DNA of 64,000 nucleotides, taken from the NCBI GenBank assembly GCA_024743175.1, contig JANSXA010000004.1, positions 124,001 through 188,000 of the forward strand, read 5' to 3'. Under the pieces are notes generated by a model. The model was not told where the DNA came from. It made no database searches and was given only the letters and a program-made list of their open reading frames with translations. Made by a program: the position numbers and the translations under genes. This stretch comes from Pseudomonadaceae bacterium (GTDB lineage: Bacteria; Pseudomonadota; Gammaproteobacteria; Pseudomonadales; Azotimanducaceae). Positions 3,962-15,252 of the stretch are shown here, in pieces (the first letter of the stretch is position 1; every line of letters begins with the position of its first letter).

Positions 3962-6019
3962 TCAGAATTCGAAGCGAAGGCCTGCTTCGATGGTTCTGCC
4001 GGGTGCGGGGGCGAAGTCTTTGATGAAAGACGTATGGTAACGCTGTTCATCGTCGGTCAGATTTTTGCCGTTTACAAACAGGTTCAAGCTGCCGTCTGCA
4101 ACGGGGATTTCCATACCAATATAGGCACGCAGATCGTTGTAGCTGTCTGTCACAAACTCACGATCAGAAACGTCACTTTGTTTATTTACATTCAGGTAGT
4201 CCAGTGACGCTGTGATCATGCCAAAGGTGGTTTCCACGCCTAAACCATAGCGCAGAGGTGGAATGCGTGGCAGATTATCGTTGCCGGATACATCAACTTC
4301 CGCATCAACCCAATCAAACATGCCTCGCAGCATAAGTTTGCCGTTATCCCACTGTGCTACACGCGCCGAAACTTCAACATCAATACCTGTAAAGGTTGCG
4401 TCTTCCTGTTGAAATGCAAAAACAGGTAAACCATCTTCGATATCGCCGGTGGCCTGTTCATAGATGAAATCAGAAAAGCGTGTGTAGTATGCGGTTGTGG
4501 AGACGTTCCAGGCTTCAGTGCGATAGCTGAGCGTTGCGGAGAGATTGGCTGCTGTTTCGCTGTCAAGGTCCGGGTCGCCCAACTCAAATGCATTGGTCAC
4601 CAGGTGTGGTCCATTGGAGTAAAGCTCCTCCGCCACTGGTGCGCGGGAGGAATAGTCTGCAAGCACGCCCAATGCCCAACCGCCATCAAATGGAATAACC
4701 AGTCCGATGGACGAGGCAAAAGGCGTAAAGTCCTCGTCAGGACCCACACTGGGCTCATGTTTCACACGGCCAATTCGAAAGCCGGTCTCCAGATCGAAAT
4801 TGTCGAACTCGCGTTCGCCAACCCAGAAAATGCCGGTGTCTGTGGTATCAACGGGTGGTACAAAAGCTTCCTCACCAACAGCAGAGAATTCTCTGTCAGT
4901 ATGCTGCAGACCAAACGCGCCACTCCATCTATCTTTTTCGTAAGTTAACTCACCACGCAGTTCCCAGGCTTCGTTAGTGAAGACTGAGCCAACCTCGCCG
5001 CTGGGTTCAATTTCAGCATGCTCATAGTCGTTGATGCCCAGGCGCAAATTCAAACTGGTGAAGTTGGCAAAAGGGTCTTTAACAGCCAGTTCAACGTCGG
5101 TTCGGGTTTGCTCCATGTCCAGCAGGGGTGTGCCCTCTCCCTCTTCTTCTTCGCCTTCCTCCTCTTCATGAGCATGTCCGCCTGGCAAACCATATTCCGC
5201 TTCCGTGCGGCTGACAGAGGCGCCAATCAAACCCCAGTCCGCGATGTAAGCTACACCGCCGGCGTAGGACTCAGAATCAAAAGCGCTACCCGGCAAAGTG
5301 CCTCGTGCTTCTTCTTCACTCTCGCCTTCTTCTTCCTCTTCAGAAGCACGAAGCCGTGCAGACTCCGCAAAGCCGGGGATGTCGTAGTCGTCGCCATCTT
5401 TCCAGGTGCCGTCCAGATGCCAGGCGATCTGACCTATACTGCCGTTTAACTTTGCGGCGGTTGTATTGCCGTCTGTGTTGTCGTTGTAGCGGGTTTCGAT
5501 TCCACCACTGACCGGTTTATCTGACAGGTTGTGTGGAATGCGCCCTGTGTGTACATCGACAACGCCACCAATGGCGCCTGATCCGTATAACAAAGCGCTG
5601 GAGCCTTTTAATACTTCCACTCGATCAGCAATGAAAGGTTCAACTGTGACAGCGTGGTCAGCACTGGTCACAGACACGTCTAAAGTATCGATGCGGTCTT
5701 CCATGATGCGCACGCGTGGTCCGCCGAGGCCGTGGATAACCGGCCGACCAACCGCATTACCAAATTGTGCCGAATGGATGCCGGGCTCCTGAGCAAGGGT
5801 TGCACCAATATTTGTGGCCAACTTACGTTGCAGTTCCGCACCCTCCAGCACCTTGCTGGCCTGGGACAGGCCCTCACCGCTTAAGGGGTGGGCAACGACA
5901 ATAATTTCCTCTAATACTTCCGGGGATGATTTTTCAAATTCTGCCTGGCTTGCGAAGCTGGTTAAGCTGACGGCAAGCAGACTTACGCCCACGCAGGGCG
6001 CAACTACTCTAAATTTCAC
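3962..6019 (-). CDS. TonB-dependent receptor, ZnuD-like with acidic/His-containing loops
   Basis: Signal peptide, plug domain (GLGGPRVRIMEDRIDTLDVS, GSGAIGGVVDV), C-terminal GLRFEF; tracts SEEEEEGESEEEARG and GGHAHEEEEGEEEEGEG. Confidence 0.88.
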   Translation of the reverse strand: MKFRVVAPCVGVSLLAVSLTSFASQAEFEKSSPEVLEEIIVVAHPLSGEGLSQASKVLEGAELQRKLATNIGATLAQEPGIHSAQFGNAVGRPVIHGLGGPRVRIMEDRIDTLDVSVTSADHAVTVEPFIADRVEVLKGSSALLYGSGAIGGVVDVHTGRIPHNLSDKPVSGGIETRYNDNTDGNTTAAKLNGSIGQIAWHLDGTWKDGDDYDIPGFAESARLRASEEEEEGESEEEARGTLPGSAFDSESYAGGVAYIADWGLIGASVSRTEAEYGLPGGHAHEEEEGEEEEGEGTPLLDMEQTRTDVELAVKDPFANFTSLNLRLGINDYEHAEIEPSGEVGSVFTNEAWELRGELTYEKDRWSGAFGLQHTDREFSAVGEEAFVPPVDTTDTGIFWVGEREFDNFDLETGFRIGRVKHEPSVGPDEDFTPFASSIGLVIPFDGGWALGVLADYSSRAPVAEELYSNGPHLVTNAFELGDPDLDSETAANLSATLSYRTEAWNVSTTAYYTRFSDFIYEQATGDIEDGLPVFAFQQEDATFTGIDVEVSARVAQWDNGKLMLRGMFDWVDAEVDVSGNDNLPRIPPLRYGLGVETTFGMITASLDYLNVNKQSDVSDREFVTDSYNDLRAYIGMEIPVADGSLNLFVNGKNLTDDEQRYHTSFIKDFAPAPGRTIEAGLRFEF

Positions 6020-6038
6020 GTGTAACTCCTAACAAAAG

Positions 6039-6059
6039 CGCAAACGTTTTCCGTTTGCG
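6039..6059. promoter_or_regulatory. inverted repeat upstream of TonB receptor, candidate operator
   Basis: CGCAAACG-TTTTC-CGTTTGCG, 8-bp perfect arms, 20 bp upstream of the receptor start codon. Confidence 0.4.
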
Positions 6060-6088
6060 TTTAGATCAATAAATTTATGTTTTGTTTG

Positions 6089-6388
6089 TTAGGGCGAAGG
6101 TGGGGCGCGGGACTGAAATGCCGGCCAGTGATCGGAAGACTGAATGCACGTCTGGAAGCTGATGTTCCAGGTGTGCGGGTGTTTTACTGTAGGTGTTTTT
6201 GCGGCCGCGCTGTCTGCAGCCGGGCTATGGTCGCCGTGTGCACAGATGACGCAGCTATTGAGATCGTCCGCTGAGTGAAAATGCTGTTGCGCCAGGGTCT
6301 GACTGGCAACCAGAACTAACAGCGCAGCGGCCAACAGATGCCGCAATCGGCAAAGTCGGTATGAGGGCTCGCTGTGTAATAAGTTCAT
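6089..6388 (-). CDS. small secreted/membrane protein, DUF2946-like
   Basis: Signal-like N-terminus, CVICAHGDH motif, C-terminal SRAPPSP; directly upstream of TonB receptor, same strand. Confidence 0.55.
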   Translation of the reverse strand: MNLLHSEPSYRLCRLRHLLAAALLVLVASQTLAQQHFHSADDLNSCVICAHGDHSPAADSAAAKTPTVKHPHTWNISFQTCIQSSDHWPAFQSRAPPSP

Positions 6389-9924: not shown

Positions 9925-12108
9925 CTAGTCTTCTTGCACGACTTTGACAGGTGCCCGGGCCAGGATGTGATGTTGGAATCCGGTGACATAACGCACCTCG
10001 TATTCACCCGGTCCAGCCTGAGTTGGGTAAGCTGAAACAGTACCAGAGCCCGTTTGCGCCTTTGTCAGGAAGCCGTAGCGTGGGGTTATATTCCACATTT
10101 TCTCAGCCGGTCTGTTTGCAGGTACCACCACAATACGATCACCTTTGTAGTTTGGGCCGTTGTATTGCACGTCGAACTCTTCTCCAACTGAGATCTGTTG
10201 GGGCGTGCTTAAGGTTGCCGGCGCCTGAGTAACTTTCAGCGGTCGGCTGGACAGGAACTGCCGCCCCGGTTCAAGGAAATAGGCTACCTCGTAGTCACCG
10301 GGCACGTTAGGCACCTGGACGCTGAAATCTGGCTGTACAACGCCACGCACGGTGCGCAGCGCCATCGCCTCGCGATTAATCTTCTGTGTCCCAACATCAA
10401 CGATAGAGATAATGTCGTTTTCAAAACCGTAAATTTCGGTTGTGTTTATTGAAATAGTCGAGCCACCCACAACTTCTTCAGGAGAAGTGATATCAACGGA
10501 CACGCTGGTCAGGGTGAGCGGCAGGCTGGTGGCAACAGTGTACTGCATGCCTTCGTACAACGTGTAACCGTTTGTCAGAATATAGCGGATCTCGTAGTCG
10601 CCTGGAGTTGCTGGCGCATTTATCGTCAACGTTTTTCCCTTGTTGACTTTGACAGTGCGCTTATTGTCATAGACCGATGAAGAGCCAGACTCTACTATCG
10701 AAACAAAGTCGTTAGGGTTGGGGTCGCCAGACCATTGTACTTCTATAGCACTGGCTACCGAAGCAGAAGACGGTGCATCCAATGAGAAGGGGCGGTCTGT
10801 TATGCTGATGGGCTGTCGCGCCAGAATGACTCTGGGTTTATCCAGCACATAACGCACCTCGTATTCTCCGCTGATTGAAGGGCCACCGATAGTCACGGCT
10901 GCCAGGTCTTCGTCGTTAAACTGCCCGTCGCCATTGGTATCCAGGCTGGCTTTATCTTCTGCGCCATTGGCAAATTCGGTTCTGGCCTTTGCTGCCGCAG
11001 ATCCGTAGATGTAATCCCGTGGGCTGTCGTCTAACGCCGTGATGTAAACGTAAGCACCCAGCGAGTCCGGACCACTCCAGGTGACTTCTACAGGTTTAGC
11101 CGCAACGCCAGATCGTGGCGCAGACAGCGTCACGTCCAGTCCCATGTCGATCGGCACGGTGATGACACGGGGTTGCTGTGCCGCCAGGGTAAATGTGAGT
11201 TGGCTGGTTAACTCCGAATTGTGCGCCCAGCCCCGCCAGGTTGCCTTGGCCGTGTATTCGCCAGGGGGCAGTTCGGTTTGCGTGATGCCACTGTCAGCGA
11301 CGGTATGCACAACCTTGTCGGTGCCAGCAACCACAACCGACCAGTCGAGCTCACTCTGCAGCAGCGGCCCTCCCGGCAGCAGCGTCGCTTTAAGTACAAC
11401 CTTGGAGGGCTTGAGTTCGGGCGTCGCAGGCGCTACGTCAGCTATCGTGGTCAAAGCCTGCGCCAGCTCTTGAGCATTTCCGGCGGTCAGAAGCTGACCT
11501 CCGGTTTCTGCAGCGATACATTGCAATCCCTGCCGTTCAGACTCTGTCACGTCAAAACCAATCACGTGAACCGTAAAGTCCAACCCCTCTTCTTCTAATG
11601 TACGGGCGAGGGCGCAAGGGTCAGCATTGCAGTTTTCCAGGCCGTCGGAGACGAGGATCACAGTAGCTGCCTGCTTGGTGTAATTCAGCGCTGTGGCAGC
11701 GTGAGAAACTGATGCTGTCAGGGGTGTTTTGCCTTTGGGAGATATTGCGCGCAGCTGTTTGACCACCTGCTGTCGTGTTGCGCCAACGTCTGAGAGGGTT
11801 TCGATATCTGTACAATCCGCTTTTTTCCGATGGCCGTAGGCGACTAATCCCAGGCGCTGATTCTCCGGTAAACCCCAGATGAGTTCTTCCATGACGTCTT
11901 TGGCAATCACAATTTTGTTGATGCCGTCGATCTGCCCCCACATTGATCCGGAAGCATCCAGGATAAACAGCGAGTCTTGAATCTCTACCTGGTCCTCAGC
12001 AACAGCGGGAATGAACAACAGACTCATTGTTAGTAACACTAGAACTTCAATTAGGACCTGCAGTTGTCTGAGCATGCCGAACCCCCTCCAGTAGCTGCGG
12101 AAATGCAT
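9925..12108 (-). CDS. VWA domain-containing exported protein
   Basis: Signal peptide, ILDASGSMWGQIDG MIDAS, repeated Ig-like/GEYEVRY modules. Confidence 0.85.
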   Translation of the reverse strand: MHFRSYWRGFGMLRQLQVLIEVLVLLTMSLLFIPAVAEDQVEIQDSLFILDASGSMWGQIDGINKIVIAKDVMEELIWGLPENQRLGLVAYGHRKKADCTDIETLSDVGATRQQVVKQLRAISPKGKTPLTASVSHAATALNYTKQAATVILVSDGLENCNADPCALARTLEEEGLDFTVHVIGFDVTESERQGLQCIAAETGGQLLTAGNAQELAQALTTIADVAPATPELKPSKVVLKATLLPGGPLLQSELDWSVVVAGTDKVVHTVADSGITQTELPPGEYTAKATWRGWAHNSELTSQLTFTLAAQQPRVITVPIDMGLDVTLSAPRSGVAAKPVEVTWSGPDSLGAYVYITALDDSPRDYIYGSAAAKARTEFANGAEDKASLDTNGDGQFNDEDLAAVTIGGPSISGEYEVRYVLDKPRVILARQPISITDRPFSLDAPSSASVASAIEVQWSGDPNPNDFVSIVESGSSSVYDNKRTVKVNKGKTLTINAPATPGDYEIRYILTNGYTLYEGMQYTVATSLPLTLTSVSVDITSPEEVVGGSTISINTTEIYGFENDIISIVDVGTQKINREAMALRTVRGVVQPDFSVQVPNVPGDYEVAYFLEPGRQFLSSRPLKVTQAPATLSTPQQISVGEEFDVQYNGPNYKGDRIVVVPANRPAEKMWNITPRYGFLTKAQTGSGTVSAYPTQAGPGEYEVRYVTGFQHHILARAPVKVVQED

Positions 12109-12185: not shown

Positions 12186-12473
12186 ATGGCAAACGAAGGC
12201 TATCATGAACCCATTGATGAACTGACTGATGAAACCCGCGACATGCATCGAGCCATCATATCCCTGATGGAAGAGCTCGAAGCGGTTGACTGGTACAACC
12301 AGCGAGTTGATGCCTGCAAAGACGAAGCGCTAAAAGCCATACTTGCGCATAACCGTGACGAAGAAAAAGAGCACGCTGCCATGGTGCTTGAATGGATCCG
12401 TCGCAAAGACCCGCGTTTTGATAAAGAACTGAAAGATTATCTTTTCACAGAGAAACCAATCGCGCACAAATAA
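12186..12473 (+). CDS. encapsulated-ferritin (EncFtn)-like protein lacking C-terminal encapsulation peptide
   Basis: HRAIISLMEELEAVDWYNQRVDA...AILAHNRDEEKEHAAMVLEWIRR closely matches the EncFtn family as remembered from Rhodospirillum rubrum; stops just after YLFTEKPIAHK. Confidence 0.85.
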   Translation: MANEGYHEPIDELTDETRDMHRAIISLMEELEAVDWYNQRVDACKDEALKAILAHNRDEEKEHAAMVLEWIRRKDPRFDKELKDYLFTEKPIAHK

Positions 12474-13552
12474 TGAACAGGCGATATGCAGCGCTTACGG
12501 TTAGCCTTTGCATCGCATTGTCAGCCTGCGCGGGTGTTGGGCCGCAGGTCTTTGAGAGTAACCGGGCCCAGTACAATATGGCCTTGCAGAATACTGATGA
12601 TCAACAGCTTCTGCTCAACATTGTGCGCTTGCGGTATCGAGATCGGCCCTACTTTCTGGAGGTGAGCAGTGTTGCCTCTCACTTTAATTTTCAGTCTCGG
12701 CTTGGTGCTCTAGCCGCACTGGGTTCGCCGCAGATTGAACAGGAAGTGCTGGCTGATGCGGGGATCGTTGTAGAAGAACAACCGACGGTCACTTACATAC
12801 CTCTGCAGGGTGCAGATTTTACTCAGCGTCTGTTAACGCCTGTATCGCTGCAGACGCTTGTGCTGCTTGCCCATTCTGGTTGGAGCATAGAACGCATTCT
12901 GAAACTGGGCGCGCAACGCATCAATCAATTGCCGAATGCCCCTACTGCAGCTGGGCCGACTCCGGATGCGGCACCCATATACAGCGACTTCCAGAACCTG
13001 GCTGAGCGGCTTCGTGAATTGCAGATTGCAGACCATTTCTTCTTTGGCTGTCGTGGTGGCGAGGAAAGTGAAGCCATCTACATATGTTTTGATCAAAGTG
13101 TGGTCGGTAGCAAAAAGTACCTGGAAATTGTCCAGCTGCTGGGTCTGCAGCCTGGCGCCACAAGTTTCCGCATTGTCCAGACCGCAACCGCGGGAAAACC
13201 TTCTATTGTGCTGCAACCCAGGTCATTTCTCGGCATGCTCTATTACTTATCACAAGGTGTTGTGCCGCCGGTGGCTGATGTAAAAGCGGGTCGCGTCACG
13301 CGAACGCGCAATGCGGACAATACAGAATTCGACTGGCTCAAGTTGATGCAGGACCTGATGGTGGTAAATACTGCTGAGCAGCGACCTGCAAATGCTTTTG
13401 TTGCTATAGCTTATCGAAACCGTTGGTTCTATATCGATGATTCGGATCTGCAATCGAAATCTACCTTTTCACTGTTAGGACAGATTTTTGCGCTGACATC
13501 CGGGTCTATTGACGGTAGCGGGCCGTTGCTGACCTTACCTATCGGTAACTGA
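12473..13552 (+). CDS. uncharacterised lipoprotein coupled to EncFtn-like gene
   Basis: Lipobox ALSACAG; TAATG overlap with upstream stop; 359 aa. Confidence 0.7.
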   Translation: MNRRYAALTVSLCIALSACAGVGPQVFESNRAQYNMALQNTDDQQLLLNIVRLRYRDRPYFLEVSSVASHFNFQSRLGALAALGSPQIEQEVLADAGIVVEEQPTVTYIPLQGADFTQRLLTPVSLQTLVLLAHSGWSIERILKLGAQRINQLPNAPTAAGPTPDAAPIYSDFQNLAERLRELQIADHFFFGCRGGEESEAIYICFDQSVVGSKKYLEIVQLLGLQPGATSFRIVQTATAGKPSIVLQPRSFLGMLYYLSQGVVPPVADVKAGRVTRTRNADNTEFDWLKLMQDLMVVNTAEQRPANAFVAIAYRNRWFYIDDSDLQSKSTFSLLGQIFALTSGSIDGSGPLLTLPIGN

Positions 13553-13560
13553 ATGAGGTG

Positions 13561-15252
13561 TTATTTGTCTGACGAAAGCGCCATATTGCCTGCTTGACTA
13601 ACGTTCTTATCTGTTTCCTGCTTCAAGGCTTCAGGTGCTGTAGCCAGACGTTCCGCCACTTTGATGCTTTGCTCTGCAATACGCAGCGCACTACGGAGCA
13701 GTTCCAGGGCGGTGTTAAGACCGCTCAAAGGGAGTTGACCAACGGTTGCCTTCTGCAGCAGATTGCTTTTCAGATCGTGCCACTGTTTGCGCAGTGATTT
13801 GTACTGTTCGTCGAGGTTTTCCGTGTTGATATCTTCTGCCTGGAGCTCACAAGCGCGCAATAACGCCAGTACACTGGTCAGGTAATTTTCACAGAATTCT
13901 CCTGCGGCACTGTCTCGGATGTGTTGCAGACTTGCCGCCTGATGCGCAATTTCTTCCGCTAACGTGTCTACCTCCGCCAGGTAATTGTTGACCCGGAGTA
14001 TTGAGGACAATTCGACGGCGGTAGCTTTACTCAGGCGCTCACGTTCGAGTTGATTGACAAACGCTTCCACGCCTTCGTTCAGCGTATTGAGGGCCAGGTG
14101 TAGATGTTCGATCTCGCTCGCATGAGCGCCTTTGATGGCTGCTATGGCATGTTGTTGGGAAAGACCTGCCATGCGTCGTAGCTCAAGTCGCAACGCATCT
14201 ATTGCAAGCGCTGGCGACACCATAACGTTCTTGTCCAGGTGCACAGGCTGTCCGAGTTGTTCAGCAACTGTCTTAAACCGGCTTAACAGAAATGTGGCAA
14301 GCCGCTGAGTGTATGCCCACATGATGGCAACCCCCAGAACATTGAACACGGTATGGAAGATTGCCAGATTGACGGCCACCATAGCCTGCAGGCCAAAGGT
14401 CTCGCTGGTCCAGGCGACGAGTTTCAGCAGAATAGGTAGCAACAGCAATGCAACCGCGCCGGTAACCACGTTGAAAATGACGTGGGCAGCGGCGACGCGT
14501 TTTGCATTTGAGGTTGCGCCGATAACTGATAATGCCGCCGTAGAGGTGGTACCCACGTTTGCGCCGATTACCATCGCGGCGGCGGCATCCAGCGCAAGAA
14601 CCCCGCCGGTGGCGGCGGTCAAAGTAATCGCGATAGCGGCGCTGGAAGACTGGGTTAACAGAGTTGCCAGAAACCCCGCCATCACGTACAGCAGGAGGCC
14701 TAGCGTCGACTCGCTCGAAAGCGAGGTCAGATCCATGCCTGCAGCAAAACCCTGAAAAGCTTCGCGCAGCACATCAATACCGATAAAAAAAAGTCCAAAA
14801 CCCGCGACGGCTTCACCCAGCGACCCGAGTCTGTTGGAAGCGCCTACAAGCCGCATTGCCATGCCGATACCAATCATCGGCAATGCGAACAGCTCAATCT
14901 TGAATTCGAAGCCGACAACGGCGACCAGCCACGCGGTCATAGTGGTGCCGATATTTGCCCCATACACAATACCCAATGCCTGCATCAGATTGAGCAAGCC
15001 CGCATTAACAAACCCGATCGTGGCGACGGTTACTGCGCTGGAAGACTGGACCAGCGAGGTCATCAGAATGCCGGAAACAACACCCCGCAGCGGTGTTCGG
15101 GTCGATCGCGTGAGAATATCTCGCAGTGCATCGCCTGCTGCGAGTTTCAAACCATCTGTGATCATCGTAACAGCGAGCAGGAACAGGCCCAGCCCACCGA
15201 GCAGGGAGCCGATGATAAACACCAGATGTAGGGTGGTCTGTTCTTCCAACAC
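13561..15252 (-). CDS. Na/Pi cotransporter family protein with PhoU-like C-terminus
   Basis: Duplicated QSSSA motifs (TSLVQSSSAVTVATIGF, TLLTQSSSAAIAITLTA), GANIGTT/GANVGTT. Confidence 0.92.
   Translation of the reverse strand: MLEEQTTLHLVFIIGSLLGGLGLFLLAVTMITDGLKLAAGDALRDILTRSTRTPLRGVVSGILMTSLVQSSSAVTVATIGFVNAGLLNLMQALGIVYGANIGTTMTAWLVAVVGFEFKIELFALPMIGIGMAMRLVGASNRLGSLGEAVAGFGLFFIGIDVLREAFQGFAAGMDLTSLSSESTLGLLLYVMAGFLATLLTQSSSAAIAITLTAATGGVLALDAAAAMVIGANVGTTSTAALSVIGATSNAKRVAAAHVIFNVVTGAVALLLLPILLKLVAWTSETFGLQAMVAVNLAIFHTVFNVLGVAIMWAYTQRLATFLLSRFKTVAEQLGQPVHLDKNVMVSPALAIDALRLELRRMAGLSQQHAIAAIKGAHASEIEHLHLALNTLNEGVEAFVNQLERERLSKATAVELSSILRVNNYLAEVDTLAEEIAHQAASLQHIRDSAAGEFCENYLTSVLALLRACELQAEDINTENLDEQYKSLRKQWHDLKSNLLQKATVGQLPLSGLNTALELLRSALRIAEQSIKVAERLATAPEALKQETDKNVSQAGNMALSSDK

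Follow-up and report, generated by a model that had tools for sequence, protein, structure and literature searches.

The window, the whole stretch of 64,000 nucleotides that we analyzed, carries at positions 12186–12473 (plus strand) a gene for a short EncFtn-family ferritin-like protein (s-FLP) of 95 amino acids without an encapsulin targeting peptide, assigned on its matches to PF22277 and TIGR04535 and on its alignment with PDB 3k6c. It is followed on the same strand by a gene for an uncharacterized lipoprotein of 359 amino acids with the lipobox LSAC (12473–13552), and the stop of the first gene and the start of the second share one base in the sequence TAATG. These two overlapping reading frames had been described beforehand in a sequence-only reading, and both were found as described. 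Convergent with the lipoprotein gene lies a gene for a Na/Pi-cotransporter-like protein, named by inspection (13561–15252, minus strand). On the other side, a gene for a VWA-domain protein (9925–12108, minus strand; PF13519, 1.3e-12) is divergent from the FLP gene across an intergenic region of 77 bp. A promoter and terminator scan found no promoter, and terminators only at chance level. Fur-box-like sites upstream of FLPs gave no signal (mean best score of 10.3, against 9.9 in shuffled sequences), and the k-mers enriched upstream of FLPs could be traced to ribosome-binding sites and to the coding end of a CCG-domain Fe-S oxidoreductase gene (RFO).

The 95-amino-acid protein matched the EncFtn-like profile PF22277 with an E-value of 5.4e-45 and 151.5 bits (cut-off 27), over profile positions 2–85 of 85. 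Its alignment with the EncFtn of Rhodospirillum rubrum was ungapped, with an offset of 2, and the residues E29, E30, E32, W36, Y37, E60 and H63 were all present. The R. rubrum residues E32, Y39, E62 and H65, and the entry-site residues E31 and E34, correspond to E30, Y37, E60, H63, and E29 and E32, respectively. On this alignment, the motif EELEAVDWY (residues 29–37, plus strand 12270–12296; E29, E30, E32, W36 and Y37) is the ferroxidase and entry-site motif of helix 1, and HNRDEEKEH (residues 55–63, plus strand 12348–12374; E60 and H63) is the ferroxidase motif of helix 2. The ferroxidase residues were conserved at about 99–100% among 172 short homologues, E60 and H63 at 100%. Both the profile match and the residues place the protein in the EncFtn-like superfamily, and the retention of the ferroxidase motifs, as first proposed from the letters of the DNA, is confirmed.

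The end of the protein sets it apart from encapsulin cargo. Its match to NCBIfam TIGR04535 (138.7 bits, cut-off 125) covers profile positions 1–88 of 114 only, therefore the targeting-peptide tail is absent, again in agreement with the sequence-only reading. No C-terminal motif of the LGIGSLK type was present in the protein. A comparison of homologues showed that the last eight residues, TEKPIAHK (residues 88–95, plus strand 12447–12470), are kept in short FLPs, with K90 conserved at 87%, I92 at 90% and H94 at 80%, and that long FLPs carry a linker and a targeting peptide beyond the point where the short ones end. With 95 residues, the terminus PIAHK and no targeting peptide, the protein is of the type called s-FLP or Non-EncFtn.

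The closest solved structure is that of Nitrosomonas europaea NE0167 (PDB 3k6c), also of 95 amino acids, which aligned from 1–95 to 1–95 with an E-value of 5e-50; a count on this alignment gave 80 identical residues (84%). The differences are small: W36 is replaced by Leu in NE0167, which ends in PIAHE instead of PIAHK, and neither protein has a targeting peptide. The earlier statement that characterized EncFtn proteins carry a tail thus holds for R. rubrum Rru_A0973 but not for 3k6c. The latter was used as a search model by He et al. (2016), who grouped relatives "lacking the encapsulin sequence" as "Non-EncFtn" (PMC5012862), and a 2024 review names it an s-FLP that forms a decamer and has no targeting peptide (PMC11202242). 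The R. rubrum EncFtn (an FLP with targeting peptide, Rru_A0973, PDB 5da5) has the helical core and the ferroxidase residues in common with the window protein, but it also has a C-terminal targeting-peptide tail and a shell gene, and the window protein has neither. The FLP core is shared, with a weak match (E-value 0.005), by the FLP-encapsulin fusion of Pyrococcus furiosus (PDB 5n5e), in which, unlike in the window protein, the FLP is fused to the shell. The window gene is therefore a further example of a known protein type (PDB 3k6c; PMC5012862; PMC11202242).

The same review leaves open whether the short C-terminus of s-FLPs holds an undefined binding sequence, and hence whether these proteins are encapsulated (PMC11202242). 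The s-FLP could then still be an encapsulin cargo, loaded into an unrecognized shell through its short C-terminus (KPIAHx), and the conservation of K90, I92 and H94 would agree with this. We looked for the shell itself. The genome of the window (4.7 Mb, 98% complete) contained a single EncFtn gene and no match to the encapsulin shell profile PF04454, adjoining the FLP gene or elsewhere, while the same search was positive in three control genomes. The profile of family 2 shells (PF19307) also had no match in this genome, but its control likewise matched nowhere. Among 54 other genomes with FLPs related to that of the window, mostly 95-amino-acid forms, 52 had no shell gene. The two exceptions were a Thiohalocapsa genome, with its own long, targeting-peptide-bearing FLP near the shell gene (G068), and a genome in which the FLP was broken and the shell present as a fragment (G087).

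The separation of short FLPs from shells extended over the whole class. Our sample consisted of 370 evenly drawn genomes, 110 with an FLP above the cut-off and 21 with a shell, and full-length FLPs were read in 105 of them, besides the genome of the window. It contained 88 short FLPs (94–103 amino acids), of which 82 were in genomes without a shell. The 6 others always stood at a separate locus from the shell, which had its own long targeting-peptide-bearing FLP or fused FLP. Conversely, all 20 long FLPs of the shell genomes adjoined the shell gene and carried a C-terminal motif like a targeting peptide, four variants (STIGPLK, STIGSLK and FTVGK types) being counted as such by eye in addition to those found by the regular expression. 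The association of FLP length with shell presence in this sample was strong when shared ancestry is ignored (Fisher p = 3e-15). A phylum-wide sample, judged by adjacency, gave 2 long FLPs beside shells and 18 short ones (94–105 amino acids) without. On the FLP tree, the tail type was strongly structured and changed just 6 times, against 22 times in shuffled labels (minimum 17), therefore few independent events lie behind the counts of length and shell presence. As the shell search detected a shell beside every long targeting-peptide-bearing FLP, it was sensitive for FLP shells. Given this, the absence of PF04454 from the genome of the window and from 52 of the 54 related genomes, and the separate loci in the 6 genomes with both, encapsulation of the s-FLP in an unrecognized shell appears very improbable. 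The genomic survey points to s-FLPs not being encapsulated. The first description of the window protein as an orphan that should act without a shell is thus supported, both by its shell-less genome and by the segregation across the class, of which we found no earlier report in the literature searched.

Several particular FLPs were seen during this survey. Residue C44 (window 12315–12317) was conserved at 98% in short FLPs against 30% in long, mostly shell-associated FLPs, and this cysteine is a possible redox or assembly feature of the shell-free form. Two FLPs of 118 and 122 amino acids, in shell-less genomes (L152 in G446 and L182 in G171), had tails rich in Lys, Pro and Ala and no targeting peptide; these tails might bind DNA or membranes. 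At L210 (G281:C227, about 5531–6205), a tail-less FLP stood in one open frame with the C-terminal part of an encapsulin (profile positions 116–252), the result of a deletion or else an unusual fusion. One genome had two FLP-shell loci with identical scores (G324:C2:313995–315122 and 3483208–3484335), an apparent duplication of the encapsulin locus.

The downstream gene had been read as coding for a lipoprotein, and this was borne out: the cysteine of its lipobox (C19) was invariant in 14 homologues. The protein matched no Pfam, NCBIfam or PHROG family, and its AlphaFold model (mean pLDDT 76.9) had no fold match in the PDB with an E-value below 0.001. The family (window 12473–13552; L088, L215–L231) shows the conserved motifs PT.TY.PL and WF.IDD.DL.SK.TFSLL, and a long beta-hairpin, partly of low confidence, is predicted at residues 61–111. 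The one-base overlap on the same strand, together with the lipobox, had led to the proposal of a functional pairing between FLP and lipoprotein at or near the cell envelope. We searched for this partnership in 58 relatives, in the 370 class genomes and at the 80 FLP loci nearest to that of the window, and it did not recur. The lipoprotein was beside none of these 80 nearest loci nor of 5 related ones, and over all the sets searched for it, a homologue was a neighbor of the FLP at 0 of about 190 other FLP loci. The lipoprotein had homologues in 22 of the 370 class genomes, and besides the genome of the window only three of these also had an FLP (G226, G307 and G340), and there the FLP and lipoprotein genes were distant from each other or on separate contigs. 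In a genome of the same genus that had no FLP (G006), the lipoprotein gene again stood tail-to-tail with the Na/Pi-cotransporter-like gene known from the window, the two showing identities of 59% and 47%, and an FLP was found in none of 36 genomes of this genus. On inspection of its start (MANEGYHEP...), the FLP also showed no signal peptide, so action at the envelope is unsupported. A lack of conservation of the pair in relatives had been named beforehand as an outcome that would refute the proposal. We therefore rejected the partnership, and a functional pair at the envelope can hardly be credited. The lipoprotein is judged to be a positional neighbor with no functional link to the FLP. The one-base overlap may couple translation of the lipoprotein to that of the FLP, but it has no conserved functional meaning. 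Most simply, the FLP would have arrived later, next to a lipoprotein-transporter pair that was already in place; the lower GC content of the FLP gene (0.47, against 0.53 for the window) fits this reading and does not prove it.

Another neighborhood did recur. In 22 of the 88 short FLPs of the class, from 16 families, the gene was located between RFO and a DUF3501 gene, and two further ones had a DUF3501 gene in the vicinity, in one case with an AhpC-type peroxiredoxin standing in between. The same placement was found at one of the 80 FLP loci nearest to that of the window (L054) and in a genome of another class (L276). A rubrerythrin gene (RBR) precedes in several longer stretches, giving the order RBR-RFO-FLP-DUF3501 at L256, L258 and L262. 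None of the 18 shell loci had such a placement. The RBR-RFO-DUF3501 triad is the aerobic-type rubrerythrin cluster of Cardenas et al. (2016) (PMC5114695). A term search of the text of that paper gave no occurrence of encapsulin, and in the passages retrieved "ferritin" referred to the superfamily. We found no earlier report, in the literature searched, of a recurrent s-FLP placement in this cluster.

The triad is present in the genome of the window (G000:C4, around 347191–349644), but without the FLP, which lies on another contig (C11) and adjoins none of RBR, RFO and DUF3501. In this respect, it differs from the cluster-embedded s-FLPs of its relatives. The s-FLPs most similar to it are almost all standalone, and a clustering of the ORFs flanking the 80 nearest FLPs revealed nothing beyond small blocks of the same lineage. 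On the tree of FLPs, based on 92 residues, embedding in the operon was scattered (20 changes, against 24 in shuffled labels with a minimum of 20), so repeated insertion and loss are not separable. DUF3501 occurred in 72% of the s-FLP genomes and in 37% of the others (p = 1e-8, phylogeny ignored), a co-occurrence that could partly reflect shared lineage.

These placements suggest an alternative role, in which the s-FLP would belong to the aerobic rubrerythrin system as a peroxidase or iron chaperone subunit, supplying iron to rubrerythrin or the Fe-S oxidoreductase or removing it, and not a general ferroxidase. The embedding between RFO and DUF3501 in 22 genomes of 16 families and in one of another class, and the complete order with RBR at three loci, are in its favor. 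However, most s-FLPs are standalone, that of the window included, DUF3501 is missing from 25 of the 89 s-FLP genomes, and the triad usually occurs without an FLP. We thus regard a role of this kind as rather unlikely. Somewhat less doubtful, though still tentative, is the wider idea that this system often has a shell-free s-FLP as its fourth component, an open ring ferroxidase or peroxidase that would work together with the three members of the triad.

For the window protein, we consider it probable that it is a cytosolic ring ferroxidase working without a shell in the defence against iron and peroxide. This reading is based on its family, its active-site residues, the missing tail, the absence of a shell gene from the genome, the separation of short FLPs and shells, and the placement of relatives in the rubrerythrin cluster. 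It is weakened by the genome of the window itself, whose rubrerythrin cluster stands on a different contig from the FLP, and by the mostly standalone position of the most similar s-FLPs (1 of 80 in the cluster). We hypothesize that the protein folds as two antiparallel helices and pairs, so that a di-iron ferroxidase site would form at the dimer interface, and that the pairs would assemble into an annular decamer by analogy with PDB 3k6c. Its ferroxidase activity is predicted from the residues. In the cytosol, its presumed location, it may oxidize Fe2+ with O2 or H2O2 and so limit Fenton chemistry under iron or peroxide stress. Because the ring has no storage cavity or shell, the Fe3+ product would have to be handed off, to another sink such as the bacterioferritin of the cell, or be sequestered elsewhere. 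When loaded with iron outside its shell, the R. rubrum EncFtn aggregates (PMC5012862), so that an unenclosed ring would depend on a sink or a partner. Bacterioferritin-like and Dps-like proteins, named by inspection, are encoded in the genome of the window. Another ferritin-family gene in this genome may be broken, as a single in-frame TAG breaks up its PF00210 ferritin-domain match (L092, G000:C9:384954–385370).

The NCBI model labels such proteins "encapsulin-associated", and yet the shell-free form was about 4 times commoner in the class sampled (88 against 20). In this class, it was nearly always found in cells without a shell gene, which brings genomic evidence to the question left open by the 2024 review. 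Also, the insertion among RBR, RFO and DUF3501 gives a testable set of partners for two uncharacterized families, s-FLP and DUF3501. If s-FLPs are indeed a fourth component of the rubrerythrin system, the encapsulated form would be the specialized and rarer version in proteobacteria.
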